From contig NZ_JARKNC010000003.1 in assembly GCF_029360805.1 (NCBI RefSeq), positions 186,001 to 250,000 of the forward strand: a stretch of 64,000 bases of DNA. Reading direction: 5' to 3'. Under the pieces are notes generated by a model. It did not search any database, had not been told where the DNA came from, and saw nothing but the letters and a program-made list of their open reading frames with translations. Every line of letters starts with the position of its first letter. Position 1 is the first letter of the stretch. The position numbers and the translations under genes are program-made. This document shows, piece after piece, positions 28,510-61,407 of this stretch. Source of the stretch: Daejeonella sp. JGW-45. Its GTDB lineage: Bacteria > Bacteroidota > Bacteroidia > Sphingobacteriales > Sphingobacteriaceae.

Positions 28510-29391
28510 TCACATTACCTTCAACGCATTGCATGTGCGGTCATTTAAAGAGGAAAAAGCCTGATCTATATGCTGAAAATTCCTGGCGCCAACAAGTACT
28601 ATTGAAATAGAAGGTTGATTCATTACCCAAGCCATTCCAAGATCTTCGGGCTTTAGCTGGTGCATCCGCGCTGTATCTAATAAAATATCCAGACGATGAC
28701 CAGCGGAATCATTAAAATAAATCTGTCTGTGTGCAGGTACCAAATCGAACCTGGACCCGAGCACAACCTGCTTTTTGTGTTTTCCGGTTAAGAAACCTGC
28801 TCCAAGTGGACTATATATTATTAGTTTAACGTTATAACGGTTGCAGACCTTTATCAGTTGGTCGTCTACCATACTCACAGCATAGTTGTGAAGGTTTTGA
28901 ATATACTTAAACCTGCTGTGGCCCGCAGAATCCTGTTTCAACAATGCATATTTCAATTGTGCAGCGGTAAAATTACTGCATCCTGAAACCTTAATAGAGC
29001 CCTCTCTTGTGAGATTGTCTATTGTTTCCAAGACTTCCGGATCCTTTATACTATTATCCCAATCATGAAAGAGTACCAGATCAAGACTAGATACGCCCAA
29101 ATTATTTAAACTTTTTTTCACTGAAGCACGAATGCTGCCCGCAGAATACGGTGGCGATATTTTTGTTGCTATCGTCATATCAGGAGCAATGGAACTATTT
29201 AGTTTTAACCACTTCCCGATTATGATCTCTGACCCACCTGCACTATAAGATGAAGCAGTATCAAAAAATCTTATTCCCTTGGAATATGCATGATCCATCA
29301 GACCAAAAGCCGTCAAATCATCGACTTCCCTGCCGAACGTGACGCAGCCTAAACCTATTGAAGGTGTGACACTCTGGTTTTCTATTTGCAT
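28510..29391 (-). CDS. Aldo-keto reductase
   Basis: NAD(P)H-dependent AKR of 293 aa from the ATG at 29391; the frame reaches 29460 but that extension overlaps the promoter. The catalytic tetrad is visible: Asp in 'IRFFDTASSYSAGG' (with Tyr), Lys in 'TIATKIS' and His in 'DLVLFHDWD'. The coenzyme end 'VLVGARNFQHIDQAFSSL' is at the C-terminus. It diverges from the aldolase at 29627 and carries its own copy of the GntR-type operator directly after its promoter. It probably reduces or oxidises a sugar or sugar aldehyde from the locus (inference); a fucose-dehydrogenase-like role is possible. Confidence 0.88.
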   Translation of the reverse strand: MQIENQSVTPSIGLGCVTFGREVDDLTAFGLMDHAYSKGIRFFDTASSYSAGGSEIIIGKWLKLNSSIAPDMTIATKISPPYSAGSIRASVKKSLNNLGVSSLDLVLFHDWDNSIKDPEVLETIDNLTREGSIKVSGCSNFTAAQLKYALLKQDSAGHSRFKYIQNLHNYAVSMVDDQLIKVCNRYNVKLIIYSPLGAGFLTGKHKKQVVLGSRFDLVPAHRQIYFNDSAGHRLDILLDTARMHQLKPEDLGMAWVMNQPSISIVLVGARNFQHIDQAFSSLNDRTCNALKVM

Positions 29392-29413
29392 TATTGGTTT
29401 AGGGTTCAAGAAA

Positions 29414-29460
29414 TATGTATTACATATAACAATGATATAAAACATGATAATTATTTCCAA
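29414..29460 (-). promoter_or_regulatory. Promoter and GntR-type operator of the aldo-keto reductase
   Basis: Read on the minus strand: TTG (29458-29460), 20 nt, TATCATTG (29430-29437), then the operator TATGTATTACATA (29414-29426), a perfect 6+6 palindrome around one base. The core GT-nnn-AC is the form bound by FadR/FCD-type GntR regulators. The layout matches the SusC and 60338 promoters, with the operator over the transcription start. Confidence 0.72.
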
Positions 29461-29554
29461 CAGAATTCGAGCAGAATATGTCCGAAGTAGGATAATGTGT
29501 TGATCTTGTTTGATTTAAGCTTATTGTTTTGGCATTAATTAATATCATAATAAA

Positions 29555-29567
29555 TATGTAATACTTA
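29555..29567 (+). promoter_or_regulatory. GntR-type operator upstream of the aldolase gene
   Basis: TATGTAATACTTA, the same 13-mer class as at 29414, 56763 and 60450, lies 59 bp before the ATG at 29627. The core promoter is not clear in this AT-rich region. The two operators at 29414 and 29555 flank the divergent intergenic space, so one regulator could control both genes. Confidence 0.65.
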
Positions 29568-29626
29568 TTAAAAAATATATCTTAGCTTAAATATTATACT
29601 AGTCGAATAATTAAACAAACAATAAA

Positions 29627-30493
29627 ATGCCAAAGAAACTTGAAGGGGTAATAATTGCTCTTCCTACGCCTCTAACGAAAGACGAAAATATCGACATTGC
29701 ATCATTAAGAACCCTGGTAGACTATTGTATTACGGAAGGCACAAACGGAATAATGATCCTGGGTACAATGGGAGAAGGTGCTTCCTTACTGGATTGTCAA
29801 AGACAACAGATGATAGAAAGCACTGTAGAACAGGTTAATGGAAGAATTCCGGTGTTGGCGACTGCGTCTGGATCGTCAACAAGGAGGAATATTGAACATG
29901 TTAAAGCGATTGACAAAAGCGGGGCAGATTATATTGTTTGCACTTCACCATACTATTATAAATACCCGGATCCGGAAAGTCTGATCCAGCATATAGAAAG
30001 GATCGCTGATATTGCGGATACACCACTGATCTTTTATAATGCTCCCCTATTTACCGGCAATGCGGTTCATACAGATATTCTGGAAAGAATAATCCACATG
30101 GAGAAAGTTGCCGGGATAAAAGACTCCAGCTGTAATTTCGGAAATTTCGTTGAACTTCTAAGACGATATCCCGACAAGGAAACACGACCAGGCACCATTA
30201 TGCAGGGTGACGAATCGGTTTTTGATTCAAGCTTATTGATGGGAGCTGATGGTGTGGTCTCAGGCGGAGGTGTGGCATTTATCAAATTACTTACTCAATT
30301 GTATGGTGCCGCCGTATCAAATGACAGGATGAGATCGATACAATATCAACAGCAGTTTTCAAAAGAGTTGTCTAAGCTCCTTACTTCCGATCCTCAGCGA
30401 AATTGGCTATACAGCATTAAAAACGAACTGGTTAAAACCCGGGTAATATCGAATGCTTATGTCACGGCTCCCTTTCCTGATTCCATCATATAA
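29627..30493 (+). CDS. DHDPS/N-acetylneuraminate lyase family aldolase (288 aa)
   Basis: Class I pyruvate-dependent aldolase fold, cytosolic. The conserved phosphate/carboxylate loop reads 'LGTMGEGASL' (GTTGE in DHDPS) at about residue 44, the catalytic Tyr is in 'LIFYNAPLF' at about 137 and the Schiff-base Lys in 'VAGIKDSSCNF' at about 165. It therefore has a complete catalytic set. Family members include DapA, NanA, KDG aldolase and 5-keto-4-deoxyglucarate dehydratase. The catabolic context and lack of lysine genes argue for cleavage of a 2-keto-3-deoxy sugar acid or a sialic-acid-like ulosonate. It heads a two-gene plus-strand unit with a sialidase-like gene 70 bp downstream. Confidence 0.9.
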   Translation: MPKKLEGVIIALPTPLTKDENIDIASLRTLVDYCITEGTNGIMILGTMGEGASLLDCQRQQMIESTVEQVNGRIPVLATASGSSTRRNIEHVKAIDKSGADYIVCTSPYYYKYPDPESLIQHIERIADIADTPLIFYNAPLFTGNAVHTDILERIIHMEKVAGIKDSSCNFGNFVELLRRYPDKETRPGTIMQGDESVFDSSLLMGADGVVSGGGVAFIKLLTQLYGAAVSNDRMRSIQYQQQFSKELSKLLTSDPQRNWLYSIKNELVKTRVISNAYVTAPFPDSII

Positions 30494-30563: not shown

Positions 30564-32285
30564 ATGGCAAAATATCCGATTCTGGGAATAGTATCAATGA
30601 GTATGCTATTATTCACCGCCGCAACTAAAAGGGAATTCAAACACACTCTGCAAGATTCCGTTAAGCATGAATTCTTTGGCATGAGGATGAGAGTAATTCC
30701 GGAAAAGACAAATGAAATTTATGCACCTGTTATTGTTAATAAAGCCCCCGGGAACGAAGCAACGATGGTGCGTCTTCCCTATGAGTTGAAAATATTTTTC
30801 GTGAACCGGCCGGGTAAAGCGGATCATATGATGTCGGTCTCCTCTGCTGATAATGGAATAACATGGTCAGCACCCACTAAAGAGTTTGATTTGCCAGGTC
30901 AGGCATACTATGCCAATAACGTAATTACGGACACAGAGGGTAATCTGCATTGTGTATTTCATATATTCGATAAAGGCGAGAATGGATATCAGGGAAGGCA
31001 TCTTAATTTGTGGTATACGCGGATGGAAAAAGGCGGTGAAAAGTGGATCGAGCCAAGGAAAATTTATGACGGATACGTAGGCTCTATCAGAAGCTTTATT
31101 CAATTAAAAAACAAAAGGCTCTTGTTTTCTTTTGCCAGGGCAGTTCCGGAACGAAGCAAGAAGCCGGAAGGCAATGCGATTGACTACGGCTGGCATAATA
31201 TAAGCACGCTTTATTCAGACGATCTGGGAGAAAAATGGCAGTTTTCGGAAGATCACCTGAAAATACCAGTTGAAAGTTCGCAAACTACCCGGTATGGAGG
31301 AGTGGAACCAAATGTTATCGAGCTTGCAAACAATAAATTATGGATGCTGATACGTACTAATAAAGGCCATATATATCAGTCGTTTTCAAGTAATTCCGGG
31401 CAAAACTGGCAATTGCCGGAAAAATCTGATTTTATATCCTCAGATTCTCCGGCTACCACTCTTCGTCTTGCAGATAACAGGATAGTGATGATATGGAACA
31501 GCAATCAACGATGGGACAATAAACGCACTTATGCTATTGGTGGCAGAGAAGCATTACATGCTGCAATTTCGGAAGATGAAGGAAAGTCGTGGAAGGGATT
31601 CCGGGAGGTGTTGTTAAGTCCGTATAAGCAACACGATGAGAAAGGCGACAGAGGTACCGCGTATCCTTCGGCAGTTCAAACGCCTGATGGCAAAATAGTC
31701 TTTGTTTCGGGCCAGGCGGAGGAGAGAGCTATAGTTAAATTCGACCCGGAGTGGTTGGAAGAGAGGACTCAGATTGACGATTTTTCCGAAGGATTAATTC
31801 AATGGAGCCTATCGGGAACTGACGGCTCTAAAAAACTCGTCCCGGCTGATTCCGGCAAACGGAATGCGGGATTTCTAATTACTAGGGCAGGCGGAAATTC
31901 AGACGCTGTATGGAATTTCCCGATGACCAAAAAAGGCAAATTGTCTATTGAAGTGCTTGCCAGTCAAGGCAAAGGCATCAACCTGGCTTTAACTGATCAT
32001 TTTTCCATCTCTTCTGATACCGTAGCATCAGATAATGCCATTTTCAATTTCACAATCCCAGCTGAAAGCTTTAAGAAAAATGATAAAACCACCCGCATTG
32101 AAATATTATGGGACAGTAACCGCAAAACCTCATCATTGTATTTGAATAAGTCACTATTCAGCGAGAAAACTTTCAAGCGTAGCCCTGTCTTCGGTGTCAA
32201 TTATTTAAGATTAGGAATTCCGGGTAAAGCACCTGATCTCAATGGATTCCGGGTTCGGTCGATAAGCGTTTCGCAATTAAAATAA
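30564..32285 (+). CDS. Sialidase-like BNR protein with C-terminal accessory domain
   Basis: 573 aa, the largest BNR protein here. The N-terminus is weakly hydrophobic ('ILGIVSMSMLLFTAAT'), a possible signal. Residues about 60-400 form a beta-propeller with Asp-boxes 'SSADNGITW', 'YSDDLGEKW', 'FSSNSGQNW' and 'ISEDEGKSW'. Residues about 410-573 form a separate beta-rich domain, perhaps carbohydrate-binding, not seen in the other BNR proteins of the locus. Canonical FRIP is not visible. The only sialidase-like gene on the plus strand, it follows the aldolase at 29627 and likely shares its promoter. The substrate is unknown. Confidence 0.8.
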   Translation: MAKYPILGIVSMSMLLFTAATKREFKHTLQDSVKHEFFGMRMRVIPEKTNEIYAPVIVNKAPGNEATMVRLPYELKIFFVNRPGKADHMMSVSSADNGITWSAPTKEFDLPGQAYYANNVITDTEGNLHCVFHIFDKGENGYQGRHLNLWYTRMEKGGEKWIEPRKIYDGYVGSIRSFIQLKNKRLLFSFARAVPERSKKPEGNAIDYGWHNISTLYSDDLGEKWQFSEDHLKIPVESSQTTRYGGVEPNVIELANNKLWMLIRTNKGHIYQSFSSNSGQNWQLPEKSDFISSDSPATTLRLADNRIVMIWNSNQRWDNKRTYAIGGREALHAAISEDEGKSWKGFREVLLSPYKQHDEKGDRGTAYPSAVQTPDGKIVFVSGQAEERAIVKFDPEWLEERTQIDDFSEGLIQWSLSGTDGSKKLVPADSGKRNAGFLITRAGGNSDAVWNFPMTKKGKLSIEVLASQGKGINLALTDHFSISSDTVASDNAIFNFTIPAESFKKNDKTTRIEILWDSNRKTSSLYLNKSLFSEKTFKRSPVFGVNYLRLGIPGKAPDLNGFRVRSISVSQLK

Positions 32286-32304
32286 TATTGTCCTCAATTA
32301 ACCA

Positions 32305-32610
32305 TCACTAGTGTCCGGTTAAAATTAAGTTCCTGATAAGATATGTACTTATGTTTTTCATTCAATGCTTTTTAACCGATTTTCAAAAGGAATCCTACCT
32401 ATACCAATACGGGTAAGCTTGACCCCGAAGGTGGTCACATGTTTATAGAAAAATTCCTTCTAATCGTTTTCCCGACCCCGAAGGTGGTCGTATATGATAA
32501 TTTCAAATACATGCGACCACCTTCGGGGTCGTTTGACGGGAATATCTGATTACTATAGACATACGACCACCTTCGGGGTCGAAGAGCAAAAAAAACCGGG
32601 CACTTAGTGA
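32305..32610. mobile_element. MITE-like element with imperfect terminal inverted repeats
   Basis: The gap 32286-32643 between convergent genes holds no gene. Its edges carry an inverted repeat: TCACTAGTGTCCGGTT at 32305-32320 and, on the minus strand, TCACTAAGTGCCCGGTT at 32594-32610 (one indel, one mismatch). The interior holds four copies of an 18-bp palindromic unit but no transposase frame. This fits a small non-autonomous element or the leftover ends of an IS. No target-site duplication could be recognised, so the call is tentative. Confidence 0.5.
32421..32581. repeat. Four copies of an 18-bp palindromic unit, two in each orientation
   Basis: The unit is CGACCCCGAAGGTGGTCG. Copies lie at 32421-32436 (partial) and 32473-32490 on the plus strand, and at 32514-32531 and 32564-32581 inverted. 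Each unit can form a small hairpin (CGACC..GGTCG), copy 2 pairs with copy 3 across 23 bp, and copy 1 with copy 4 outside it, giving a nested cruciform. A shared tail of the form RYATGTnTATAG follows several copies, showing that the repeat unit is longer than the palindrome. Confidence 0.85.
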
Positions 32611-32643: not shown

Positions 32644-33396
32644 TTATTTTCCTCGCATGAGTTTAGAAACTGTCGGATTAATTGCTTTCGCTAAAGTCTC
32701 ATATCCCTTCAATGTGAGATGCACCCTATCAGCTGTCATCAGGTCTTTCGACACAGTTCCATCTGCCTCTAAAAACATTTTGCTGATATTCAAATAAAAT
32801 ATCCTACGACGATCTGCTATTTTCGAAGCCTGCTCACTAGCTTTATTAAGCCTGTCTGCTGCTGCAGCAGTAGCAGTGCCACGCGGAAGAATGGACAATA
32901 ACAATATCTTCATGTCAGGGAGCCTGTTTATTAACCTGCAACAAACAGCTTTTATCCCATCTGCGATCTCTTCAGCCGAATAACCCTCGACATGATTGCT
33001 CCCAATTAGCACTATAGCCAGTTTTGGAGATATACCGTCAATTTCTCCGTGGTCCAGGCGCCATAATACATTCTGTGTTTTGTCCCCATCGAAACCCATG
33101 TTCACCGCGTTATACGCAGCGTAATATTTGTTCCATGTATCAGCTCCTGTACTTTCCCATCGCTGTGTCAGTGAATTCCCGACAAAAATCAAATCTGCCT
33201 TACCTTGTTTAATACGTTCAACTACGGCATGATGTCTCACCATCCATGCGGCACGTTCTCTCGGAACCGGTGTTACTGCTTCGTGAGCTTTACTTTCTAC
33301 ACATGGATTTTCAACCACCAGGTTACGGTGAGTAATACAACCCGTTTGCGTGATTGTAAATATAATGGCTATAGTGGAAGGCTTCAAAGCTCTCAT
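32644..33396 (-). CDS. SGNH/GDSL hydrolase, probable lipoprotein
   Basis: About 250 aa from the ATG at 33396, which lies 1 bp after the stop of the upstream gene. The N-terminus 'TIAIIFTITQTGC' suggests a lipobox. SGNH blocks are 'IFVGNSLTQRWE' (nucleophile Ser), 'NMGFDGDKTQNVLWRL' (Gly), 'LIGSNHVEGY' (Asn) and 'DRVHLTLKGY' (Asp/His). Such enzymes remove acyl groups, often O-acetyl, from carbohydrates. It is the last gene of the long minus-strand group and is probably translationally coupled to the mutarotase-like gene. Confidence 0.87.
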   Translation of the reverse strand: MRALKPSTIAIIFTITQTGCITHRNLVVENPCVESKAHEAVTPVPRERAAWMVRHHAVVERIKQGKADLIFVGNSLTQRWESTGADTWNKYYAAYNAVNMGFDGDKTQNVLWRLDHGEIDGISPKLAIVLIGSNHVEGYSAEEIADGIKAVCCRLINRLPDMKILLLSILPRGTATAAAADRLNKASEQASKIADRRRIFYLNISKMFLEADGTVSKDLMTADRVHLTLKGYETLAKAINPTVSKLMRGK

Positions 33397-33397
33397 G

Positions 33398-34456
33398 TTA
33401 AAACGGGTTATGCTTATCAACAACCGGGTTCATACTTAGTTCAATATTTTGACCGCTAACATTGTCCTTTATGACAACATCACCGTTAGAGTAGTAAATT
33501 TCATCTACCCCTTTAAATCCGGGGTTAACGTCACACAAAAATGAAAGGTATTTTCTAGATGACTTTTCACCAGCGTCTATATATTCGCAGGTATTTTCCC
33601 CGAAAACCTTCCAGTCGCCATCACTAAGCATCTGTTTGAAAGACTTATGAATACCCGTGGTTCCAAACTCTATACCCCTGTACCGGATTGAACTACCCAG
33701 CCAGTCCTGCCAAAGGATAATCCATGGGTAATCTGAGCGTTTCCATAAATATCCTAAAAGCAGGTTGTGTGTTGGAGAATACGCAGTAACCCAGCCCATC
33801 TTATCCGTCTTTTTAACGACATATGAAAAAACCGAAGAGTACTCTTTTTTAGGAGCACTTAAATCGATGGTGGTCATATCCCTGCACAAACCCATTGGCC
33901 AGTTTGACGCATACATTTCACGATCTACCCCAAAACTATGGTCAAATCCGGCTTCAGCATTGCAATTGACTACTGTGTCATGATCCAGGAACGGTTGTCC
34001 CAGCGTTGGATGTTGAACCATGTTATACAACCGGCCAAGGGCAGAGGTATTGTACACTTCTTCAGTAACCATATACAAAGGGCTATCCCTGCTCAGGTCA
34101 ATGCGCCTGTTAACATGAAGGCCTTCCATTGGGCTGAAAGCGCGCATTTCTAATCTCATCAGACCAGTATCTTCTGTTTCCCAGTGGATATTGCATAACT
34201 GCCCATGATCAGGCATACCCGCCTTTATTTCGCCATCAGAGGGCCTGCCCCATCTGCCCAAGCAAAGAAAGTGTCCCTGATACGGTGCGCCAGCTTTATT
34301 ATTTTCAGGCATCTGCTCTGCAGGTAATCGAAAGTTTAATGGATTGATCTTCTTTCCATGCACGCAAAATTTGGTAATCGCTCCGCCAAACGGATCAATT
34401 TCCACCGAACATGACCCGTTCTGCAATACTTTTACGGTTTCACGAGATAGCCTCAT
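33398..34456 (-). CDS. Aldose-1-epimerase-like protein
   Basis: About 352 aa from the ATG at 34456. The predicted fold is a galactose-mutarotase-like beta-sandwich: an N-terminal 'EIDPFGGAITKFCVHGKKIN', 'GHFLCLGRWGRPSDGE' and the central 'NMVQHPTLGQPFLDHDTVVN', where His-Pro and Asp recall the active-site region of DUF4432/aldose-epimerase-like proteins. No signal peptide is seen. It would act on the anomeric form of a sugar or sugar acid imported by the MFS carrier just upstream (34479), 22 bp away. Substrate unknown. Confidence 0.65.
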   Translation of the reverse strand: MRLSRETVKVLQNGSCSVEIDPFGGAITKFCVHGKKINPLNFRLPAEQMPENNKAGAPYQGHFLCLGRWGRPSDGEIKAGMPDHGQLCNIHWETEDTGLMRLEMRAFSPMEGLHVNRRIDLSRDSPLYMVTEEVYNTSALGRLYNMVQHPTLGQPFLDHDTVVNCNAEAGFDHSFGVDREMYASNWPMGLCRDMTTIDLSAPKKEYSSVFSYVVKKTDKMGWVTAYSPTHNLLLGYLWKRSDYPWIILWQDWLGSSIRYRGIEFGTTGIHKSFKQMLSDGDWKVFGENTCEYIDAGEKSSRKYLSFLCDVNPGFKGVDEIYYSNGDVVIKDNVSGQNIELSMNPVVDKHNPF

Positions 34457-34478
34457 ACGAACCCAGTGCAGCAAATTA

Positions 34479-35747: not shown

Positions 35748-35797
35748 TTTTAACGTATTGACATTATTTATCAAATTCCCAAAGGCTTCCTAGCCCA

Positions 35798-36586
35798 CTA
35801 CCAGCTTGTCCAACCGCCATCTACTAACAGGTTATGCCCGGTTATAAAAGCGGAGGCGTCAGATGCCAGGAATACTACTGGCCCTTTAATGTCTTCATCA
35901 TCAGCAAATCTTCCCAAAGGAGTTAAGCGCTTATAATTCTCTATAAATTCATCCTTCCCTGTCATTTTCTCGACGCCTGGCCCATATCCGCCCGGGCTAA
36001 TGCAATTTGCACGGATATTAAACTTCCCATAGTAATTTGCGATCCATTTAGTAAACCCGACCATTGCCCATTTATCATAAGTATAGTTTAAAGGACTGGA
36101 CATTCCTGTATCCCCATAAACAGGGAAATTGGGCCCAACAGTTCCTTGTATAGAGCCAATATTGACAATATTTCCAGCTCCATGTTCTCTCATCGTCTTG
36201 ATAACAGCCTGAGTTAGCAATATCATGCCTGTGGAATTAATACCCTGGGCTTTTTCCCATTCTTCTTTGGTGATATCTTCCAGATCTTTTAAACCCTCTC
36301 TCGATACCGCGTTATTGATAAGCACATCAATTCTGCCATGTGTTTTAATGATTTTTTGTGTAAAATGATGTATAGACTGCTCATCAGCCAGGTCAAGAGA
36401 CATACCTTCGGCCTTTAAATTTTGCGCCTTAAGTTCCTCTGCAAATGATTGGCATTTAAATTCATCTCTTGATGCAATTATCACCTGCGCACCTGCTTCT
36501 GCGAGAGCTGATGAAATGGGTTTTCCATACAGGCCGGCACCACCTGTTACTATTGCTACTTTATTATCCAGTCTGAACATTTTCAT
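35798..36586 (-). CDS. Short-chain dehydrogenase/reductase (SDR 1)
   Basis: 262 aa classical SDR. Cofactor motif 'VTGGAGLYGKPIS' at about residue 14, 'LINNAVSREG' at about 89, catalytic Ser in 'VNIGSIQGTVGP', and YxxxK as 'YTYDK' at about 170 followed by 'NCISPGGYGPG'. The C-terminus 'ASAFITGHNLLVDGGW' is standard. An insertion ('PVYGDTGMSSPLNYT') before the active-site Tyr resembles that of SDRs in nonulosonate/sugar loci. The C-terminus and spacing suggest cotranscription with the MFS gene 50 bp downstream. Probable sugar or sugar-acid dehydrogenase. Confidence 0.9.
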   Translation of the reverse strand: MKMFRLDNKVAIVTGGAGLYGKPISSALAEAGAQVIIASRDEFKCQSFAEELKAQNLKAEGMSLDLADEQSIHHFTQKIIKTHGRIDVLINNAVSREGLKDLEDITKEEWEKAQGINSTGMILLTQAVIKTMREHGAGNIVNIGSIQGTVGPNFPVYGDTGMSSPLNYTYDKWAMVGFTKWIANYYGKFNIRANCISPGGYGPGVEKMTGKDEFIENYKRLTPLGRFADDEDIKGPVVFLASDASAFITGHNLLVDGGWTSW

Positions 36587-39518: not shown

Positions 39519-39592
39519 ACAGATCAATATCTTCAAAAGGAAACATTCGTTTACGCCTGTTCGCGTAATAAAATTCTAACCATCACTGGTTA

Positions 39593-45847: not shown

Positions 45848-46012
45848 GTATTTCAATTATTAGCTATTTCTCAGCGTTTACTTATAAATCGATTTAAGAC
45901 CTGGTTTCTGATTTGGAATTTAACGCCCGTAAAGCATACCTCCCTAATATGTCTTGGCTGCTCAATAAGACGGGATCCGTATTTCAAGAACGTAAGCCAT
46001 TTGAACTTTACC

Positions 46013-53556: not shown

Positions 53557-56500
53557 TTAGAGAGTAACGTTTAGACCAAAAATGATATTCCTGGGAATAG
53601 GGTATCTGCCATTATCCTGGCCACCGTATTCAGGATTCAATCCTGAGTATTTAGTGAAATAGTGTAAGTTATGCCCTGTTACGTTAAATCTTAGAGCAGA
53701 AATTTTAGCTTTCTGCAATAGAGCTTTAGGTACATCGTAAGTAAATGTCAGCTCACGAATGGCCAAAAAATCACCTTTTTCATAAAATCTTGTAGTCCCG
53801 GCAGCTCCTCTGTATAACTTATTACGGACTTGCTGATCCGCATAAACAAATACGGGTAGTTCTGACACATCACCTGGCTTCTGCCATGACTGCAGTAATT
53901 CTTTGGAAAGTCCGTTATCACCCTGTAACTGAGCAATCATAGTCAGGTTAGTGTAATTGAAAATTGTCTGGCCCGCTGTAAAATCCGTCCTTATATAAAG
54001 ACCCATATTTTTATAGCTAAATGAATTGGAGAAGCCACCTGTCCATTTTGGATACATGTTTCCTGCGTAAACTTGGTCGCGGGTATCCAATATTTTATTC
54101 CCATCCAGATCTGCAATGATAGCATCACCTCCATATACCTTTTTATCAGCAATAGGAGTTAAATTATCCAGCGGCGCGTTAGCAGCTTCTGCATCAGTAG
54201 CATAAACTCCCAGCATGTTATAGGTATAATAATCACCCATAGTACCCCCCTCCTGTAGTCCGCCTTTCCACACGTAAGAATTGGTTTTGGAATCCCAAAC
54301 TTCTACTCCGCCGATCCGGTTATTTTTAATTCCGTTATAAGGAAGCTTAAGTATTTTGTTAGAAACTCTTGCAACGTTAAACCCAAGATCCCATTGGAAG
54401 TTAGATGTACCGGGCATAATCCTGGTATTAAGTTCAAGCTCTACTCCCTTGTTCTCTAAACTTCCTGCATTCGTCAGTGTGCTGGAAAATCCTGTGGAAT
54501 GAGGCATGCTCAAACTGGCAAGCAGGTTATCAGTTACGCGACGGTAAACGTCAAATACAACATTAACTCTATTATTAAATACCCCCAGGTCCAGTCCGAA
54601 ATCAAGCGTTTTGGACTGCTCCCACTGAAGCTCACTGTTAGCAATTACCGTATTCTGTACCGCGGCAGATCCTCCATACCTGACTCCAACATTATACTGG
54701 CCTTGTGCAGTATACGGCCCGAGGCCGCTTATATTACCATTTACGCCATAGCTTGCTCTCAGCTTTAACTTCAACAAGTTCTCTGGCAAACCACTCCAGA
54801 ATCTCTCTTTATGCACATTCCATCCCAAAGAAATACCAGGAAATAGCCCCCATTTATACGCTTCTCCCAGATTGGATGCACCATCGTATCTCGCGTTAAC
54901 GGAAAGAAGATATTTTTGCTTAAAGTCATAATTGATTCTCCCGAAATACCCAAAAATCAGCTGTTCACTTTCGGCGCTGCTTATAGATACCGGCAACGCT
55001 GACGCGTTTAATGTTGGGATTAAATCTGTGGCTGCATCCCGCCCATTACCACTTAAACTGCTTGAGAATGTACTATAATAAGAGAACCCGGCTTTAGCTT
55101 CAAAATTATGGTCATCTTTTAATGATTTGATATAGGTAAAGACTCCATCCGCCTGCTTTTGCAAACTTTTTGAATTTGAACTGCTGGCGGCCCGGGTGGT
55201 AACATAGGATAAGGGACCATTCCAGAATGCCCTTTGAAAACTCCTCGCATCACCAGTCACCTGCCACAGCGACACCTGAGGGTCGAACGTAAGACCAGGC
55301 AATATTTTCCATTGCGCCCCAAAGGCAACTGTCAGATCATCGCCAACATTTCTCCGGTCTACAGTATTTAAAAGATACTCGCTGTTCCCCAGGCTTGAGC
55401 TTGCGCCTGGAGCCAGGGTACCATCTTCAAATTTATATTTTGCTGTTGGTGGTAATCCTATCGACCTTCCAAATGTAGCCTCTGAAGTCGGATTATTATC
55501 CTGGCTGTTTGAATATATCAAACGTCCGAAAACCTTTAAATTGTCTTTGATATTAAAGTCGCCGTTTATATGTCCATTAAGTCTTTTGAAATTTGTCGTA
55601 ATAACAATTCCATCATTATTAAGGTATCCTAGTCCCGCACTGAAAGAACCCTTATCTGTTCCACCTGACGCGCTTATGCTATGGTTTCCTGATATTCCGG
55701 TACGATATATATTATTCTGAAAATCAAAATCATCAAAAATAATCGTTTTGGTTGGATCGATAGGATCAGGCATGCTCTGCCATCCTTCATTCAATTTATG
55801 CTGATTCTGAGCATTAAGATACTGTGTAGTATACGCTGTATTTTTCGTAAGATCATTGCCAGTTCCGGCGCTGCTGGCTGAAGAAAGGATCGCCAATTGA
55901 GCCGGCTTATTTCCCCAAGTTGCAGAACGATAAATTCCTAATCTTTGAAACTGTATGTAATCTCTCGCACTAAGAAGATCGTACTCTTCAACATTGTCGG
56001 AAATTGTCAGATCATATTTATAATCAATTACAGCTTTCCCTGATTTTCCAGATTTAGTAGTAATAATAACTACTCCATTGGAAGCACGGGCTCCATAAAT
56101 TGAAGTCGCAGCGGCGTCCTTAAGAACCTGCAAAGATTCAACATCAGACTGGTCAATTGTATTAATATTGCTTCTGATAACCCCATCTACGACATATAAG
56201 GGTCCCGCACCATCGGGATTGTTTATAGAAGTGCCACCCCTTATGATTATGCGGGGGCCTGATCCCGGCATACCTGAAGTAGTTTGAACCCTAACGCCGG
56301 AAAGAGTACCTTGCAATGCTGAAGCTACATTTGAAAATGGAACATTAGCAAGTACTTTAGTATCAAGCTTTGAGACCGACGTGGTAATTGTTTCTCTTGA
56401 TTGAGACCCATAACCTATAACTACTACTTCTTGTAAACTCTCTAAACTTGCTAAAAGCGTAACGTCAATTACTTTTCTTCCAGAGATTTCAACCTCCTGG

Positions 56501-56736
56501 TTTTGCATCCCAATAAATGAAAAAATCAAAACACCATTGCCATCGGAAACTGGTATCGAATAACTACCTGTTGTGTTCGTATTTGCACCTATCGAAGTGC
56601 CCTTTAATTTAACACTAACTCCGGGGAGAGTTTCACCACTTCGATCTTTGACAGTACCTGTAATGATGGTTTGTGCAAATCCTTCAAAAGCACAGAGCAT
56701 CAAAAAGGAAACAGAATAAAGTAAAATTTTCTTCAT
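53557..56736 (-). CDS. SusC/RagA-family TonB-linked outer-membrane porin
   Basis: 1059 aa TonB-dependent receptor. Signal peptide ends in 'CAFEGFAQ'. Residues about 22-100 form a carboxypeptidase-regulatory-like domain ('GTVKDRSGETLPGVSVKLKG'). The TonB-box/plug region follows with 'EVVVIGYGSQSRETITTSVS' and 'GPLYVVDGVIRSNINTIDQS', then the 22-strand barrel ending in 'YPIPRNIIFGLNVTL'. It is preceded by a GntR-type operator and promoter at 56763-56809, so it likely starts the long operon (56736 to 32644). Confidence 0.96.
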   Translation of the reverse strand: MKKILLYSVSFLMLCAFEGFAQTIITGTVKDRSGETLPGVSVKLKGTSIGANTNTTGSYSIPVSDGNGVLIFSFIGMQNQEVEISGRKVIDVTLLASLESLQEVVVIGYGSQSRETITTSVSKLDTKVLANVPFSNVASALQGTLSGVRVQTTSGMPGSGPRIIIRGGTSINNPDGAGPLYVVDGVIRSNINTIDQSDVESLQVLKDAAATSIYGARASNGVVIITTKSGKSGKAVIDYKYDLTISDNVEEYDLLSARDYIQFQRLGIYRSATWGNKPAQLAILSSASSAGTGNDLTKNTAYTTQYLNAQNQHKLNEGWQSMPDPIDPTKTIIFDDFDFQNNIYRTGISGNHSISASGGTDKGSFSAGLGYLNNDGIVITTNFKRLNGHINGDFNIKDNLKVFGRLIYSNSQDNNPTSEATFGRSIGLPPTAKYKFEDGTLAPGASSSLGNSEYLLNTVDRRNVGDDLTVAFGAQWKILPGLTFDPQVSLWQVTGDARSFQRAFWNGPLSYVTTRAASSSNSKSLQKQADGVFTYIKSLKDDHNFEAKAGFSYYSTFSSSLSGNGRDAATDLIPTLNASALPVSISSAESEQLIFGYFGRINYDFKQKYLLSVNARYDGASNLGEAYKWGLFPGISLGWNVHKERFWSGLPENLLKLKLRASYGVNGNISGLGPYTAQGQYNVGVRYGGSAAVQNTVIANSELQWEQSKTLDFGLDLGVFNNRVNVVFDVYRRVTDNLLASLSMPHSTGFSSTLTNAGSLENKGVELELNTRIMPGTSNFQWDLGFNVARVSNKILKLPYNGIKNNRIGGVEVWDSKTNSYVWKGGLQEGGTMGDYYTYNMLGVYATDAEAANAPLDNLTPIADKKVYGGDAIIADLDGNKILDTRDQVYAGNMYPKWTGGFSNSFSYKNMGLYIRTDFTAGQTIFNYTNLTMIAQLQGDNGLSKELLQSWQKPGDVSELPVFVYADQQVRNKLYRGAAGTTRFYEKGDFLAIRELTFTYDVPKALLQKAKISALRFNVTGHNLHYFTKYSGLNPEYGGQDNGRYPIPRNIIFGLNVTL

Positions 56737-56762
56737 AACAATGTGGTTTAATAGTTCATTAA

Positions 56763-56809
56763 TAAGTCTTACATATTACAATACTAAACAATATTTTCTT
56801 TTATGCAAA
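56763..56809 (-). promoter_or_regulatory. Promoter and GntR-type operator of the susC operon
   Basis: Minus strand: TTTG (56806-56809), 19 nt, TAGTATTG (56779-56786), then the operator TATGTAAGACTTA (56763-56775) over the start of transcription, 27 bp before the susC ATG. The segment 56758-56811 is nearly identical to 60445-60498 (about six differences in 54 bp), so both sites are bound by the same factor. The remaining gap to 56932 shows nothing further. Confidence 0.78.
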
Positions 56810-56932: not shown

Positions 56933-58843
56933 CTATCGGATCACCTCCAAATCAATAACAGAAACCCGCTCCGTACGGTTCTTTCTGGAATCAGGCTCTC
57001 CGCTTACCAACCACCATTGCTTATCATTAACCCGTATGAGCGGAGCGGTAGCGGATGGAGTAATTAATTCTCCCGTCTTAATCATTGACATATCATTCAA
57101 ACTTAACACCCAAACGTCTTTATGTACGTTAATCGGTTTGCTATTGTCAGCCCTTCCTGTGATGATAAGATGATCATCATCAATACGCTGGCTAGTCCAG
57201 GCATAACCTTTAAAAGGCAGATCAGCAAGCTTTGTCCATGTATTCGCTTCAGGATCGTAGCGATACGCATCGCTCAGTGCCAGGCCCTCTGATGAACCGC
57301 CCAGCAAATAAAGATATTTCCCATTGGATACCAGCGATGGGAGTATTCTGGCTACGCCGGGAATGGGTTCGACTTCGCGCCAGAGTTCTTTAGTATTCTT
57401 CAAATCAAGAACGAACATTTTAGCCGTGCTCACCCCATCCGCGGATCCACCGGCGACATAGAATTTGTGATTAATAATTGCTCCTGCACCCGAGTGTAAC
57501 GCTAGGGGCAATTTAGGCAGCGGTTTCCATCCTTCCTTCAATGAATTGAGCCGGTAAGCGTCTCCAAAAGCAATCTTCCCATCATCTGTACCCCCCGCGA
57601 AGTAAACTCCGCTATCATCTGAAGCATACATGGAATAAGCCACCGGGTGTGGTAATGCTGGTCCGGATATCCATTTATCCTGATTAAAAAGCACTGCATC
57701 CTTCAGCCAGGTCTTCGTAATCTTGTCTTTGCTCCACGTATTACCTCCAGCTACTATAACCTTCCCCTCTATTTTGCCTCCTATATGGCCCCCCCGTGCC
57801 AGGTTCTCGTCCAGTGATACACCTTTTGTTACTGTAGTGGTGTATTTCATATTCGGACTCAATCCCATCTTTGAAAAGGTTTCACGCATATTTCTTAGTT
57901 CAGGCTCTGCCAGTGTCTCTGGTTTAGGTCTGATAAATCGTTTAGGTCCGCCGAAATATTCAATTGCAGTACTCCAAAGAGCAAAGGAAAACTTCTCCAT
58001 AAAAGGCACATCATATTTCAGTATAATTTCCGTCGCAGTTCTCACATCGTTTTTCTGCATTGCCTGCCAGAATTTTTGCCCGATTGCAGGTGCGTACGTA
58101 TATAGTGTACTATAATAAGCCGGGGAACCGTAGGGATAACCCTGAAGGTACCTTCCATCGTTACCTCCTCCAAAAATTGCAAGCCTGTCGCCAAACAGGA
58201 TTTGCCTGCTGACATAATATGGATAGTCAACATCTTCCTTCATGGCGACAATCGATTTATTCTTCACGAGTTCTGTGAGCAGCTCTACAGAATAAAATCC
58301 ATGCAATATAATGCCCAGTTTCGTTTCCTTCGCAACATCCTGATAAAATTTAACGACGTCTTCAGTACTGGCAGTGTTTGGAAGATCTTTTGGCCTCGAA
58401 ACCTGAACTGCACTGTAACCCAGTAACTCAGCATACCGTACATAATCCATCACATCTTCCCTGTCCCATGCACCTGTTGATGCGATGGTTAAGGCTTTTC
58501 CGTCGACAGCCTTAGCCACAAAACTTGTTAACTCCCTGATCTCCTCATATGACAAAAGATTATATTTGGAATTGCCTGACGTGAGTGTTACTACTCCGCA
58601 GCCATAAGCCAGAGCCGGTTTGATCATATCCTCTATTCCTTTGAAGTCAATCTCGTAAGTCTCGGTAAAAGGCGTAGGAAAGGAAAGGATCGGACCTTTT
58701 AATTTTTCCCTGAACTCCACTGGAGTAAGAAGTTTTCGAGTCGTGACAGACGTACCCTGGGCTTTTGAATCCACGGTCCATGCTGACTGTAATATTATCA
58801 GCATACAGATAGTTAAACGACATTTCCCGGCAAGCTTGTTCAT
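56933..58843 (-). CDS. Secreted fusion: NAL/DHDPS-like domain + Kelch propeller
   Basis: 636 aa from the ATG at 58843, which gives a clean signal ('LTICMLIILQSAWTVDSKAQ') after an AGGGG at about 7 nt. Residues 40-320 have the TIM-barrel aldolase pattern: 'LKGPILSFPTPFTETYEIDF' and the Schiff-base-type Lys202 in 'SIVAMKEDVDY'. GSTGE is 'TSGNSK', and the catalytic Tyr loop reads 'GIILHGFYS', with about seven residues missing. Residues 330-636 form a Kelch propeller with GG turns 'VIVAGGNTW', 'VYFAGGTDDG', 'FYVAGGSADGV', 'LYLLGGSSEG'. It precedes the susC promoter. Both separate domains also occur in this locus. Likely non-aldolase or altered catalysis. Confidence 0.85.
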   Translation of the reverse strand: MNKLAGKCRLTICMLIILQSAWTVDSKAQGTSVTTRKLLTPVEFREKLKGPILSFPTPFTETYEIDFKGIEDMIKPALAYGCGVVTLTSGNSKYNLLSYEEIRELTSFVAKAVDGKALTIASTGAWDREDVMDYVRYAELLGYSAVQVSRPKDLPNTASTEDVVKFYQDVAKETKLGIILHGFYSVELLTELVKNKSIVAMKEDVDYPYYVSRQILFGDRLAIFGGGNDGRYLQGYPYGSPAYYSTLYTYAPAIGQKFWQAMQKNDVRTATEIILKYDVPFMEKFSFALWSTAIEYFGGPKRFIRPKPETLAEPELRNMRETFSKMGLSPNMKYTTTVTKGVSLDENLARGGHIGGKIEGKVIVAGGNTWSKDKITKTWLKDAVLFNQDKWISGPALPHPVAYSMYASDDSGVYFAGGTDDGKIAFGDAYRLNSLKEGWKPLPKLPLALHSGAGAIINHKFYVAGGSADGVSTAKMFVLDLKNTKELWREVEPIPGVARILPSLVSNGKYLYLLGGSSEGLALSDAYRYDPEANTWTKLADLPFKGYAWTSQRIDDDHLIITGRADNSKPINVHKDVWVLSLNDMSMIKTGELITPSATAPLIRVNDKQWWLVSGEPDSRKNRTERVSVIDLEVIR

Positions 58844-58943
58844 GTTGCCCCTTTTCTGCGTTATCATTATTTGTTTCATACGACAGGCGCTGGTGGTCAA
58901 AATCAATGATTAATATTTAGGGTATAGCGGTTGCTGCAGGATT

Positions 58944-60338
58944 TTACAAGCTGAGAGTATATTTATATGAATTCGCATTCCAGGTCTCCTTATTTTCTCC
59001 CAGGCGTGTCAGGTACATTTCTATTTCCTTTGTTTCACGATTTTCAAACAGTGAGAAATTTGAGAACTGAACCAGCTCGGTATCCTTCGCGGGATCACGG
59101 TCATCCAACACTGTGAGCGTACTTTTAATAAAAGATGGTCCCTCCTCATTTACTTCTACTATCTGAAGCGGGTACCTGGGACGATTACCCTTCGGAGGAT
59201 CATTTGTTATGTTTCCAACCCAATAGAGCTTTCCCGTTTTTGAGCTGCGTATTGTTTTGTGTATGGATGCAGGTGAGTAAAACTGTTCGCCTGTATCGTA
59301 GCGCATATCTTTTATTTCACTCCAGGTATGTCCCCCGTCTTTAGAAACTGAAAACCATTTTCTTCCGGGAGATACCGGGGTATCATTCCCCCGCATAATG
59401 AGCATTAAGTTACCGTTCTTTAATTCGCTGAGATCGAGCTCAACCAGTCCGCGTGAGGATATCTTCCTGGGCAGAAATATTGCTTCGGATTTTTTCCAGT
59501 TATAGTTTTGTTTTCCCTTATCCCACGTTCCTATAAAACACATTGCACCGGCAACGTTTCCTTTTCTGTAGTTATTAGGAAAAATAACAGGATACTTTTC
59601 ATCCTCGTCATTTTTATATGGCACCGGCACAGTAGCACTGATCAGGACTGTACCATTTTTCAATGCCAATGCATTTCCAATGTACATTTCATTGGTCCAT
59701 AACCAATCTTTCTTACCCCAGTCTTTCGGATCAAAATCAGGTCCTTCTTCATATTTAAGCTGAAAGGTGTCTCCCCAGGTTTGACCATTATCTTCAGAAA
59801 GCTGATAATATCCATGATCCCAGAAAAGCCGTTCGCCTTTCCATACACTTTTCAAAGCTTCTTCAGGTTTACCCTGAAATATTCTCTGAAAAACAGGTTT
59901 AATTAACCTACCTGAAACAGCGTCAAGCGGCCCGGTTCCTTTTTGACTGGCTCCCCCGCTTTGAGTGAACTGACCGTCGGTTTGTGTCTCTGTCGGGATC
60001 GGGATCCATGGCTTCCAGGTACGTCCGTTATCGTCTGACGTTCGTCCCAATTGCATGATATGCCAGTCGCTTGATTGCATAAATAATAAGGTTTCCTGCC
60101 GGCGCAACCCTGAGCCGATATAGTGCATTCCTGTCATAGGTGCCAGGCTGGCGTCAGGTCCTTTAATATGAACTTCTCTTTTTATCTGGCAGATCGGACC
60201 CCTGGTTATCTTAACCTTGTCCTCTGTTTCAATGACTGCTGCTGAAAGCGATTCCGGCAACAGCCATGACCCAACAAGGGAAGTGATGCCTAGCTGAGAA
60301 CTCTTTTTTAAGAAACTGCGTCTAACTAATGATTTCAT
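58944..60338 (-). CDS. Sialidase-like BNR protein F with Tat-type signal
   Basis: About 464 aa from the ATG at 60338; the frame extends to 60386, but 'KSLVRRSFLKKSSQLGITSL' gives the Tat motif at the start. Asp-boxes: 'TSDDNGRTW', 'LSEDNGQTW' and 'VSKDGGHTW'. It has an acidic insert ('YEEGPDFDPKDWGKKDWLWT') not seen in the other BNR proteins. 'ISSRGLVELDLSELKNGNLM' followed by 'MRGNDTPV' holds a Glu and Arg. It heads the operon segment with the operator at 60450 and is followed by the aldolase-Kelch fusion (100 bp). Confidence 0.82.
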   Translation of the reverse strand: MKSLVRRSFLKKSSQLGITSLVGSWLLPESLSAAVIETEDKVKITRGPICQIKREVHIKGPDASLAPMTGMHYIGSGLRRQETLLFMQSSDWHIMQLGRTSDDNGRTWKPWIPIPTETQTDGQFTQSGGASQKGTGPLDAVSGRLIKPVFQRIFQGKPEEALKSVWKGERLFWDHGYYQLSEDNGQTWGDTFQLKYEEGPDFDPKDWGKKDWLWTNEMYIGNALALKNGTVLISATVPVPYKNDEDEKYPVIFPNNYRKGNVAGAMCFIGTWDKGKQNYNWKKSEAIFLPRKISSRGLVELDLSELKNGNLMLIMRGNDTPVSPGRKWFSVSKDGGHTWSEIKDMRYDTGEQFYSPASIHKTIRSSKTGKLYWVGNITNDPPKGNRPRYPLQIVEVNEEGPSFIKSTLTVLDDRDPAKDTELVQFSNFSLFENRETKEIEMYLTRLGENKETWNANSYKYTLSL

Positions 60339-60449
60339 GTATTTATTTTTTCCTGTGTTATGTTTATTGGCCGTTGAGCTTGTCAATTTTTACGGGCTCT
60401 CACGGTCTGTGATGTTTGCTTCAATTATTTGCTCCCTATTCGTAATTAA

Positions 60450-60496
60450 TAAGTCTTACATATAACAATACTAAACATTATTTTCCGCTATACAAA
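60450..60496 (-). promoter_or_regulatory. Promoter and GntR-type operator upstream of BNR protein F
   Basis: Minus strand: TTTG (60493-60496), 19 nt, TAGTATTG (60466-60473), operator TATGTAAGACTTA (60450-60462). Same spacing and nearly the same sequence as the susC promoter. A leader of about 110 nt follows to the ATG at 60338. Confidence 0.78.
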
Positions 60497-60657
60497 TAAT
60501 CTGTCCGGCGGATTGTCGAAAAGTTTCGAAGGAGTTAATGTTAGATGGATAACGAATTACGCGAAGAAAGAGATTAGACCCGGTATCGATATAAAAAGTA
60601 TCAGATTGTCAAAAGGCTTTACATTTTAAAAAATTAGACATATTAATTTCTAATGAG

Positions 60658-60665
60658 TAATTTTG
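60658..60665 (+). promoter_or_regulatory. -7 box for the GntR regulator gene
   Basis: TAATTTTG is an exact TAnnTTTG match 47 bp upstream of the TTG start at 60712. No clear -33 TTG. Confidence 0.45.
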
Positions 60666-60711
60666 CGCCGAACTCGATTGTGAGTTACGTATCCATTAAT
60701 AAGAAAATACT

Positions 60712-61407
60712 TTGACAGCATTTAAACTTTCCAAAATACGTCCCGTTGAAAGCCTCACTCAAGTAGATAAAATTGAAATCACGTTACAGGAATATTTTCG
60801 GAACGAGAACTTCGCTCCCGGCGATTCTATTCCGAAAGAAGTAGAGCTCGCAGAGGCAATGGGAGTTAGCCGTACAGCTATCAGAGAAGCGATAGCCAGA
60901 TTTAAAACTTTAGGAATAATCGAGTCCCGGAAGAACAGAGGAATGATCTTAACCCGCCCAGATATTTTAAATAATATGCAACGGTTAATGGACCCTCAAT
61001 TACTGCATGGGGACACCATGAAAGAGATATTCGAAATGAGGCTGGTTATAGAAATAGGTTTGGCCGACATTCTTTTTCCCAGAAAGACTGAAGCCGGTTT
61101 AGTTAAGTTAGAACGGATAGTAGAGAGGGAAGAAAAAACGGATAATAAAATCGAAAAGGTAAAATGTGATGTTGAGTTTCATTCCATGCTATATGAAATT
61201 TCGCAGAACGAAACCATTCAACGGTTTCAGAAAATGCTGTTGCCCATATTCGATTACATGGACAATGAATTACATATTAAAAGTCAGATACCGGATGTGG
61301 GATATGCATCACACAGGGTATTGCTCGAGGTATTAAAAAACGGCACCCCTGAAGAATTCAGAAGTAAGATGAAAAATCACTTATTTAATTATTTCGAGAA
61401 GGTATAG
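60712..61407 (+). CDS. GntR-family (FadR/FCD) transcriptional regulator
   Basis: 231 aa. Winged HTH: 'GDSIPKEVELAEAMGVSRTA' with 'IREAIARFKTLGIIESRKNR' at about residues 37-77. FCD ligand-binding domain at about 100-225, with 'FEMRLVIEIGLADIL' and His in 'DVEFHSMLYEISQNE' as possible metal/ligand residues. The start is TTG at 60712, with a stop codon just upstream. FCD regulators respond to carboxylic acids or sugar acids. The 13-mer operators GT-nnn-AC in this window fit its class, so it is the probable regulator of the locus. Confidence 0.88.
   Translation: MTAFKLSKIRPVESLTQVDKIEITLQEYFRNENFAPGDSIPKEVELAEAMGVSRTAIREAIARFKTLGIIESRKNRGMILTRPDILNNMQRLMDPQLLHGDTMKEIFEMRLVIEIGLADILFPRKTEAGLVKLERIVEREEKTDNKIEKVKCDVEFHSMLYEISQNETIQRFQKMLLPIFDYMDNELHIKSQIPDVGYASHRVLLEVLKNGTPEEFRSKMKNHLFNYFEKV

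Follow-up and report, generated by a model that had tools for sequence, protein, structure and literature searches.

We analysed a stretch of 64,000 nucleotides from the genome of Daejeonella sp. JGW-45 (contig NZ_JARKNC010000003.1, positions 186,001 to 250,000; hereafter the window, in whose numbering positions are given). It contains a 33-kb locus of 27 genes (28510-61407) that we read, with only slightly better than even confidence, as a regulon that serves the use of a sialic-acid-type (nonulosonic) sugar and whose lower pathway would be oxidative and do without an amino sugar kinase. Five observations underlie this reading: the families to which the proteins belong, the conservation of their catalytic residues, kinship to GH33 sialidases and N-acetylneuraminate lyases (NAL), a gene set conserved in other genomes, and a promoter palindrome.

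Pfam and NCBIfam scans of the window proteins reproduced, with coordinates, the inventory given in an earlier reading of the sequence (the original prediction). The locus encodes seven BNR proteins (starting at 30564, 44735, 46946, 48128, 49461, 50731, and 58944), six of which reach the Pfam BNR_2 cut-off; three dihydrodipicolinate synthase (DHDPS)/NAL domains (genes at 29627, 40056, and 56933); and two NanM/Kelch domains (genes at 37631 and 56933). SusC and SusD, two GDSL esterases, one SGL lactonase, two short-chain dehydrogenases/reductases (SDR), two aldo-keto reductases (AKR), one major facilitator superfamily (MFS) transporter, RidA, one pyridoxal phosphate (PLP) enzyme of the PALP family, and a GntR/FCD regulator are also present. 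Three genes were missing from the earlier list: a zinc deacylase (42894-43829), a DUF4432 gene (33398-34474), and a gene whose product matches no Pfam family (46013-46939). The deacylase is the key gene, and it is decisive for the interpretation.

The scans detected no NanE, NanK, NagA, or NagB among the 27 genes. Neither NanE (PF04131) nor the AGE epimerase (PF07221) had a match in the window, the 27 genes included, and a genome-wide search for ROK-type amino sugar kinases gave four matches, all of them outside the window. The proposal of one sialidase-type regulon that lacks the usual epimerase, kinase, and NagAB route is supported. The further step taken in the original prediction, from these absences alone to a different sugar, is not; with the deacylase, the set forms a self-consistent oxidative route for the amino sugar released by a NAL, quite possibly N-acetylmannosamine (ManNAc).

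Proposed pathway and core enzymes

In the scheme that follows, each reaction, the sequence of steps, GntR binding, and the identity of the sugar are inferred. Outside the cytoplasm, sialidases of the type that we call BNR-A, together with the esterases, would free the sugar, and SusC/SusD and the MFS carrier would import it. A NanM-type mutarotase and the NAL would then yield pyruvate and an N-acetylhexosamine, most likely ManNAc. One of the dehydrogenases, SDR_A, would oxidise this product at C1 to a lactone, the SGL lactonase would open the lactone to an N-acetyl-aldonate, and the deacylase, which is of the DoeB type, would remove acetate. The PLP enzyme would remove water and the amino group as an enamine or imine, whose hydrolysis by RidA would give a 2-keto-3-deoxyaldonate (2-keto-3-deoxygluconate, KDG, if the hexosamine is ManNAc). 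The first DHDPS-family aldolase (DHDPS1) would split this compound into pyruvate and an aldehyde for an AKR; in other loci, other enzymes would take this step. GntR would control the locus through TATGTANTACATA.

Four of the core genes lie side by side on the minus strand: the deacylase (42894-43829; PF24827, 92 bits), SDR_A (42086-42901), the PLP gene (40977-42089; PF00291, 236 bits), and the NAL (40056-40973; PF00701, 168.6 bits). The deacylase and SDR_A overlap by 8 bp, SDR_A and the PLP gene overlap by 4 bp, and 3 bp separate the PLP gene from the NAL. Because these genes overlap or nearly touch, they are probably co-expressed.

In a PDB search with a profile of the NAL orthologs, the first 29 matches were all named NAL, many of them variants of the E. 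coli enzyme, and the named NALs outscored DapA and YagE. Residues Y136, K163, T165, D190, and E191 are invariant (n=16 sequences); presumably they include the catalytic lysine and residues of the sugar site. Against the NCBIfam NAL model the protein reaches 171.6 bits, short of the cut-off of 281; by family kinship, it counts as a predicted N-acetylneuraminate lyase.

The deacylase is of the AstE/AspA/DoeB type and is the candidate N-acetyl-aldonate deacetylase. Its best NCBIfam model is DoeB (78 of 403 bits), and its PDB neighbours include DoeB 6twl; DoeB, named among its best solved relatives, is an N-acetyl-L-2,4-diaminobutyrate deacetylase. H28, E31, R80, H112, and E176 are invariant (n=16), and we take them to be a zinc site and an arginine. 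The PLP enzyme, the candidate 2-amino-aldonate ammonia-lyase, has threonine synthases as PDB neighbours and an invariant K58 (n=19); presumably the enzyme is of fold type II and K58 is its PLP lysine. SDR_A, the candidate hexosamine 1-dehydrogenase, has glucose 1-dehydrogenase as PDB neighbour and invariant S142, Y155, and K159 (n=19), presumably the catalytic Ser, Tyr, and Lys of the SDR family. R104 and E118 are invariant in RidA (39593-39976, minus strand; PF01042, 75.6 bits; n=19), the putative enamine/imine hydrolase. So are E26, N112, N154, and D210 in the SMP-30/SGL lactonase (38694-39536, minus strand; PF08450, 99.5 bits; n=16), which we assume to be metal ligands. Judged by these residues, the core enzymes look intact.

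The families of the deacylase and the PLP enzyme also bear on the sugar. In the characterised ong pathway of Pseudoalteromonas, which degrades oxidised chitin, a deacetylase and a PLP-dependent deaminase are described as taking N-acetylglucosaminate (GlcNAc1A) to KDG (PMC9537276). By our own working of the stereochemistry, mannosaminate is the C2 epimer of glucosaminate, L at C2 as opposed to D. The ong enzymes would be of D types because glucosaminate is a D-amino acid; ManNAc would require L types, as found here. That DoeB-like and threonine-synthase-like proteins, families acting on L-amino acids, would suit a route through ManNAc is the most telling single argument for it.

Sialidase-like proteins

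BNR6 (50731-51909; like BNR2 to BNR5 and BNR7, on the minus strand) is of the BNR-A type. A structure model built from 20 relatives (pLDDT 83.5) superposed on a Micromonospora sialidase with a Z score of 37.5 over 313 residues at 2.4 A, with other sialidases close behind; the first 33 rows of the structure search were all sialidases, save one designed metalloprotein and one receptor fusion. R64, D92, E243, R259, R321, and Y352 are invariant in 20 BNR-A sequences. For the second half of BNR6, a residue-level alignment with 9db6 and 4fj6 was obtained, whereas the pairing of R64 and D92 with sialidase residues comes from superposed ranges only. The model and alignment thus predict a whole-domain sialidase fold with the Arg triad, the Asp acid/base, and the Glu-Tyr pair of GH33. 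BNR2 (44735-45856; PF13088, 113.5 bits) and BNR5 (49461-50558; PF13088, 116 bits), both with lipoprotein-like N-termini, are also of the BNR-A type. The group is kin to GH33, and sialoside hydrolysis is predicted for it.

The other four are more distant. BNR1 (30564-32285, plus strand, with a signal-like N-terminus; PF13088, 97 bits; BNR-A profile homology probability 99.8), BNR3 (46946-48115; PF13088, 100 bits; PDB match 8axs, E 2e-13), and BNR7 (58944-60386, likely exported; PF13088, 34.9 bits; profile match probability 98.0) are sialidase-like and match BNR-A by profile, although the first arginine is not established in these three. BNR4 (48128-49384; 27.2 bits, below the cut-off of 31.4) is divergent and possibly sialidase-like; in a profile comparison, a Glu and two Arg line up weakly with the other BNR proteins (probability 38%, E 3e-4), and its model is poor (pLDDT 55.5).

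The original prediction took the expansion of BNR proteins to imply several linkages or decorations of one glycan. This does not carry over to the relatives in the order: 10 of 13 loci have BNR-A, nine of these ten in a single copy, and some loci have one to three other BNR types.

Conservation of the gene set

A PLP enzyme profile, applied at E 1e-70, was used to look for related loci. The gene was found in 14 of 400 genomes of the order and in 2 of 395 genomes of the phylum, the Daejeonella genome included in both counts, and in none of the 13 same-genus genomes listed. A scan of named genomes added a Chitinophagaceae metagenome-assembled genome (MAG; stretch L011), Dyadobacter bucti (L013), D. 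frigoris with two copies (L014, L015), a short contig of another Chitinophagaceae MAG (L012), and two distant Lachnospiraceae matches. L012 (a 7.9-kb contig) and L016 and L017 (another phylum, 25-27% identity) were left out of the gene-set counts. For these counts, BLASTP was run at E 1e-20, and two or three stretches per genome, some ended by contig ends, were pooled.

The original prediction had proposed looking for the same gene set in relatives. Apart from the Daejeonella genome, 13 genomes of the order have the PLP gene, and in each of them it is surrounded by the core set of deacylase, SDR_A, RidA, lactonase, and a NanM-like gene. The 13 loci further contain the NAL (12), MFS (12), GntR (12), SDR_B (10), AKR2 (10), BNR-A (10), glycerate kinase (5), and DHDPS1 (2). 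The core set also occurs in L011 and in G556, a genome of the same class and another family. We considered whether the PLP enzyme is the organism's own threonine synthase and rejected this, because the gene is as rare as counted above and lies in such a cluster in the 13 genomes of the order, G556, L011, and L013-L015 (L012 being the exception).

The enzyme for the second cleavage varies. DHDPS1 (29627-30493, plus strand; PF00701, 156 bits), whose PDB neighbours are mostly DapA and also YagE, is found in the window, G209, and G232; the slot is filled elsewhere by a RraA-type protein (L013-L015, L101) or an HpcH/HpaI-type protein (L101). In G043 it holds a FAH-type gene that lies downstream of a class III aminotransferase gene (AT3) and of the palindrome of AT3; its closest model, with 355 bits against a cut-off of 500, is 2,4-didehydro-3-deoxy-L-rhamnonate hydrolase. 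A glycerate kinase gene lies near 5 of the 13 loci; the next gene looks alike in three of the five, and the one scanned is glyoxylate-reductase-like. Since unrelated families that act on keto acids fill the same slot, these genes suggest a 2-keto-3-deoxy acid intermediate. One possibility for SDR_B (35798-36586, minus strand; gluconate 5-dehydrogenase-like) and AKR2 (36680-37621, minus strand; PF00248, 106 bits) is oxidation of KDG at C4, followed by hydrolysis to pyruvate and glycerate.

Promoter palindromes

A perfect TATGTANTACATA palindrome, the proposed GntR operator, lies at 29414-29426, and TATGTAATACTTA, with one mismatch to it, lies at 29555-29567, 72 bp upstream of DHDPS1. The first site falls within the annotated AKR1 gene (28510-29460, minus strand; PF00248, 182.6 bits), whose true start is likely near 29391. 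A 40-bp element on the plus strand upstream of SusC (56759-56798) includes TAAGTCTTACATA at 56763, with two mismatches to the palindrome, and a second copy upstream of BNR7 (60446-60485, plus strand; 38 of 40 positions identical) has a two-mismatch site at 60450. Two-mismatch sites alone number 13 in the window against about 5.7 expected, which is not far above chance, so the case for the sites at 56763 and 60450 comes from the repetition of the 40-bp element. A further one-mismatch site, at 43442, lies inside the deacylase gene.

Without mismatch, TATGTANTACATA occurs 16 times in the 292,898 bases of the 14 loci and four times in other stretches of these genomes that total 350,026 bases. The loci themselves were the source of the motif, which makes the counts a description and not an independent test; a few of the sites counted lie inside genes. 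Three of the four sites in other stretches had already been counted in overlapping stretches, and the fourth precedes AT3 in G043. A site with no more than one mismatch is present in ten of the 14 loci, and palindromes precede the NAL, BNR-A, SusC, GntR, and DHDPS1 in various loci. The putative binder, GntR/FCD (60712-61407, plus strand; PF00392, PF07729), is 80% identical to the regulator in L039, which adjoins a one-mismatch palindrome; a relative of DHDPS1 with a one-mismatch palindrome also lies in L039.

An ordinary nan locus elsewhere in the genome

The Daejeonella genome has five PF00701 members, one of which belongs to an ordinary Bacteroidota-type nan locus on another contig (L019:375-14958). 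It comprises GntR, SusC, SusD (these three recognised by reading), NAL, NanM, MFS, a BNR protein, a SASA esterase, and an AGE epimerase. Elsewhere in the genome there are four ROK matches and three matches to the NagB family, the latter not told apart from 6-phosphogluconolactonases; a genome search for NanE (PF04131) turned up a single borderline match (28.1 bits), which lies within a longer frame. The statement that NanE, NanK, NagA, and NagB are missing thus stands for the 27 genes and fails for the genome. It is the locus, and not the organism, that lacks epimerase, kinase, and NagB (no genome-wide search was made for NagA).

A NanE-type set elsewhere in the genome, induced together with this locus, had been named as evidence against the original prediction. 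Such a set exists, and what bears on joint induction is its promoter region, which carries TATGTTATACATA and TATGTCATACATA, near-identical palindromes. Its GntR is 41% identical to that of the window. These two likenesses suggest common descent of the control of both loci.

An ordinary nan-type NAL (at least 60% identity; E 1e-15) is also present in 7 of the 14 genomes. Among the other seven, G039, G132, G227, and G365 have only the NAL of this locus, G043 has none, and G209 and G369 have further NAL relatives at 41-43%.

Alternative explanations

Several observations weigh against the proposed scheme. If the sugar were N-acetylneuraminic acid (Neu5Ac), the ordinary NAL in half of the genomes looks redundant, and the ordinary nan locus of the organism itself fits a second, different substrate for the window locus; for this reason the sugar may be another nonulosonic acid. 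The nearest solved relatives of the PLP enzyme are threonine synthases, not dehydratases; the substrate specificity of an SDR such as SDR_A is not readable from sequence; and SDR_B and AKR2 are without a sure role. In G043, where the NAL is missing from the locus, only a distant DHDPS (27% identity) was found. No deacylase was found in the fetched stretches of the three Dyadobacter loci, and the fetched D. frigoris loci contain no NAL, two NALs (53% identity) lying elsewhere in that genome. In L012, which has a PLP relative at 58% identity, the other genes of the set are absent from the 7.9-kb contig. Finally, an AGE-family gene (35-37% identical to the AGE of the nan locus) lies on the same strand, one gene from the NAL, in G039 and G122 (L095:11261-12433 and L096:2840-4012) and could send ManNAc to N-acetylglucosamine.

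Two further genes, MlrC (M81) and AT3, surround the PLP gene in all 13 loci of the order and have no place in the proposed scheme, which also counts against it. The window locus lacks both; their relatives lie about 10 kb apart elsewhere in the Daejeonella genome (61% and 77% identity to their counterparts in L011), in stretches of contig C7 without a palindrome within two mismatches. Positions 84-120 kb of C7 (L093, L094) hold a cluster of MlrC, AT3, a GlcD-like FAD/Fe-S oxidase, and an amidohydrolase, together with 3-hydroxyacyl-CoA-dehydrogenase-like, RidA-family, and gamma-glutamyltranspeptidase genes. Possibly this cluster serves a further amino acid or amino sugar pathway.

The alternative that survives best, though we consider it unlikely, keeps the same oxidative logic and makes the sugar another bacterial nonulosonic acid, for example a legionaminic-type 5,7-diamino sugar. 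The resulting hexose would have no 6-hydroxyl and so could not be processed by NanK/NagAB. The second N-acyl group would fall to MlrC, and AT3 would deal with the second amine. This would give work to the otherwise unexplained MlrC and AT3 and would make the ordinary NAL of seven genomes the enzyme of a different sugar. The L-configuration argument, again worked out by hand, admits the legionaminic series and makes pseudaminic acid less likely. Two genes that lie behind AT3 in G043 also bear on this: one is similar at its start to the FAD-linked oxidase of L094, and the other is the FAH-type gene, whose nearest match is an enzyme for a 6-deoxy sugar (rhamnonate). However, the NAL keeps the Asp-Glu pair, which we take to contact the glycerol side chain, the glycerate kinase near five loci suits a 6-hydroxylated sugar, and the window locus is without MlrC and AT3. 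No legionaminic acid catabolic pathway was found among the matches listed in our literature searches. A wider formulation, to which we give somewhat less credence still, is a third, kinase-free route for nonulosonic acids, patchy in Bacteroidota, in which the NAL product would be the precursor of an L-amino acid; the substrate would be, for example, legionaminic acid, with MlrC and AT3 acting on its second amino group.

The downstream steps could instead be ordinary, with ManNAc passing to the AGE epimerase, ROK kinase, and NagAB elsewhere, and with the SDR, PLP enzyme, and deacylase serving a side substrate of the glycan. AGE, ROK, and NagB-family genes do exist elsewhere in the genome, some AGE-family match is found in 13 of the 14 genomes, and the AGE-family genes beside the NAL in G039 and G122 would fit such a route. 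Nevertheless, 6 of the 14 genomes have no close relative (at least 68%) of the nan-locus AGE, seven have no NAL at least 60% identical to the ordinary one, and the core genes accompany the NAL of the window type in 12 of 13 loci. We regard ordinary downstream steps as rather improbable.

It is quite doubtful that the substrate of the NAL-type enzyme is a different 2-keto-3-deoxy acid and that of the BNR proteins a different acidic sugar. BNR1, 3, 4, and 7 are divergent, and the DHDPS/NAL superfamily is generally known to be functionally broad; however, BNR-A matches sialidases in structure across its entire domain and retains six catalytic residues, the NAL profile ranks named NALs above DapA and YagE, and nitrogen-free sugars would call for neither a deacylase nor an ammonia-lyase. 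Pectin or Kdo (3-deoxy-D-manno-oct-2-ulosonic acid) as substrate was rejected, as only an amino sugar would give the deacylase, the PLP enzyme, and RidA a purpose.

Other genes and features of the locus

The remaining genes lie on the minus strand. SusC (53557-56736; PF13715, PF07715), a TonB-dependent transporter-like protein, and the SusD-like protein (52015-53508; PF07980, 88 bits) are adjacent, and the MFS transporter, the putative inner-membrane importer, lies at 34479-35774 (PF07690, 183 bits). The NanM/Kelch mutarotase-like protein (37631-38662; PF24996, 129 bits; TIGR03548, 154 bits, below the cut-off of 243) shows no export signal. A second Kelch protein (56933-58906; PF00701, 62.8 bits; PF24996, 79.4 bits) is a fusion in which a Schiff-base lyase-type DHDPS domain is joined to a NanM/Kelch domain behind a signal-like N-terminus. 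GDSL esterase 1 lies at 32644-33423 (PF13472, 66 bits) and GDSL esterase 2 at 43875-44690 (PF13472, 101 bits); the latter is likely exported, judging by its N-terminus. The DUF4432-like protein (33398-34474) scores 24.6 bits, below the cut-off of 32.5. The protein without a Pfam match (46013-46939) has a twin-arginine-like N-terminus, and its counterparts in L013 and L011 (about 60% and 70% identical, respectively) lie near BNR genes, in L013 also near SusC/D. A gene for a protein with a weak GHL10 match, below the cut-off, adjoins the MFS gene in five genomes (e.g., L045:17447-19129).

Downstream of BNR1, at 32421-32580, there are four copies of GACCCCGAAGGTGGTC, two direct and two inverted, with nested hairpins possible; 100 shuffles gave none. 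Five more copies occur in three other stretches of the same genome (L007, L009, L072), and since copies recur elsewhere in the genome, we consider GACCCCGAAGGTGGTC a dispersed repeat. No RNA families were found at 28000-62500, and no tRNAs in the whole window.

Comparison with known systems

The gene set of the window locus is real, conserved, and coherent, and it would constitute a new version of sialic-acid-type catabolism if the enzymes act as their families suggest. We found no published description of this gene set among the matches listed in our open-access literature searches, judged by titles and beginnings of abstracts. Non-phosphorylating sugar acid routes, such as the oxidative rhamnose route, proceed by a dehydrogenase, a lactonase, a 2-keto-3-deoxy acid, and an aldolase or diketo-acid hydrolase; in the window, their sugar acid dehydratase would be replaced by a deacylase and an ammonia-lyase, in keeping with an amino sugar.

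The ong pathway is similar in its middle steps: an N-acetyl-aldonate, a deacetylase, a PLP deaminase, and RidA lead to a 2-keto-3-deoxyaldonate, as proposed for the window locus, where RidA is likewise in the cluster (39593-39976). The ong study describes its RidA protein as essential for growth and its deaminase as related to D-serine and D-threonine enzymes (PMC9537276), and OngB is reported to have the D-aminoacylase fold, a (beta/alpha)8 barrel (PMC12017989). The two systems differ in that the sugar of the window locus would come from a nonulosonic acid and be oxidised by a dehydrogenase, whereas ong uses a lytic polysaccharide monooxygenase; the window deacylase is of the AstE/AspA type, not of the D-aminoacylase fold of OngB, the window PLP enzyme belongs to PF00291 and is not a fold-type III deaminase like OngC, and an aldolase stands in place of the KDG kinase of ong. 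The NAD-dependent oxidation of ManNAc to the lactone is an established reaction (EC 1.1.1.233; PMC4016182), and its enzyme, N-acylmannosamine 1-dehydrogenase, appears in the sources consulted as an assay reagent. The reaction proposed for SDR_A is this one; the likeness is one of reaction.

The known routes for sialic acids, as described in one source, go through a phosphorylated amino sugar, both by NanA/K/E in E. coli and by NanL/NanE-II/RokA in Bacteroides; in B. fragilis, the sequence is NanL, the NanE-II epimerase, the RokA kinase, and NagA/NagB, and the 2,7-anhydro-Neu5Ac route of Ruminococcus feeds into NanA/K/E (PMC10017367). The catabolism of free amino sugars, including ManNAc, is likewise described as initiated by phosphorylation (PMC9537276). 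If the proposed pathway is correct, oxidation, deacetylation, and deamination would form a third type of sialic acid catabolism, ManNAc 1-dehydrogenase would gain a pathway, and the route would be overlooked in surveys that, like one already made, take nanA, nanK, and nanE as the mark of sialic acid catabolism. Should the sugar be a bacterial nonulosonic acid, the locus would show how bacteria recycle such surface sugars. The window locus shares SusC/D, a sialidase-like protein, an esterase, NanM, MFS, and NAL with the Bacteroidota sialic acid pathway; in contrast, it has no epimerase or kinase, and a dehydrogenase, a lactonase, a deacylase, a PLP enzyme, and RidA are found instead.

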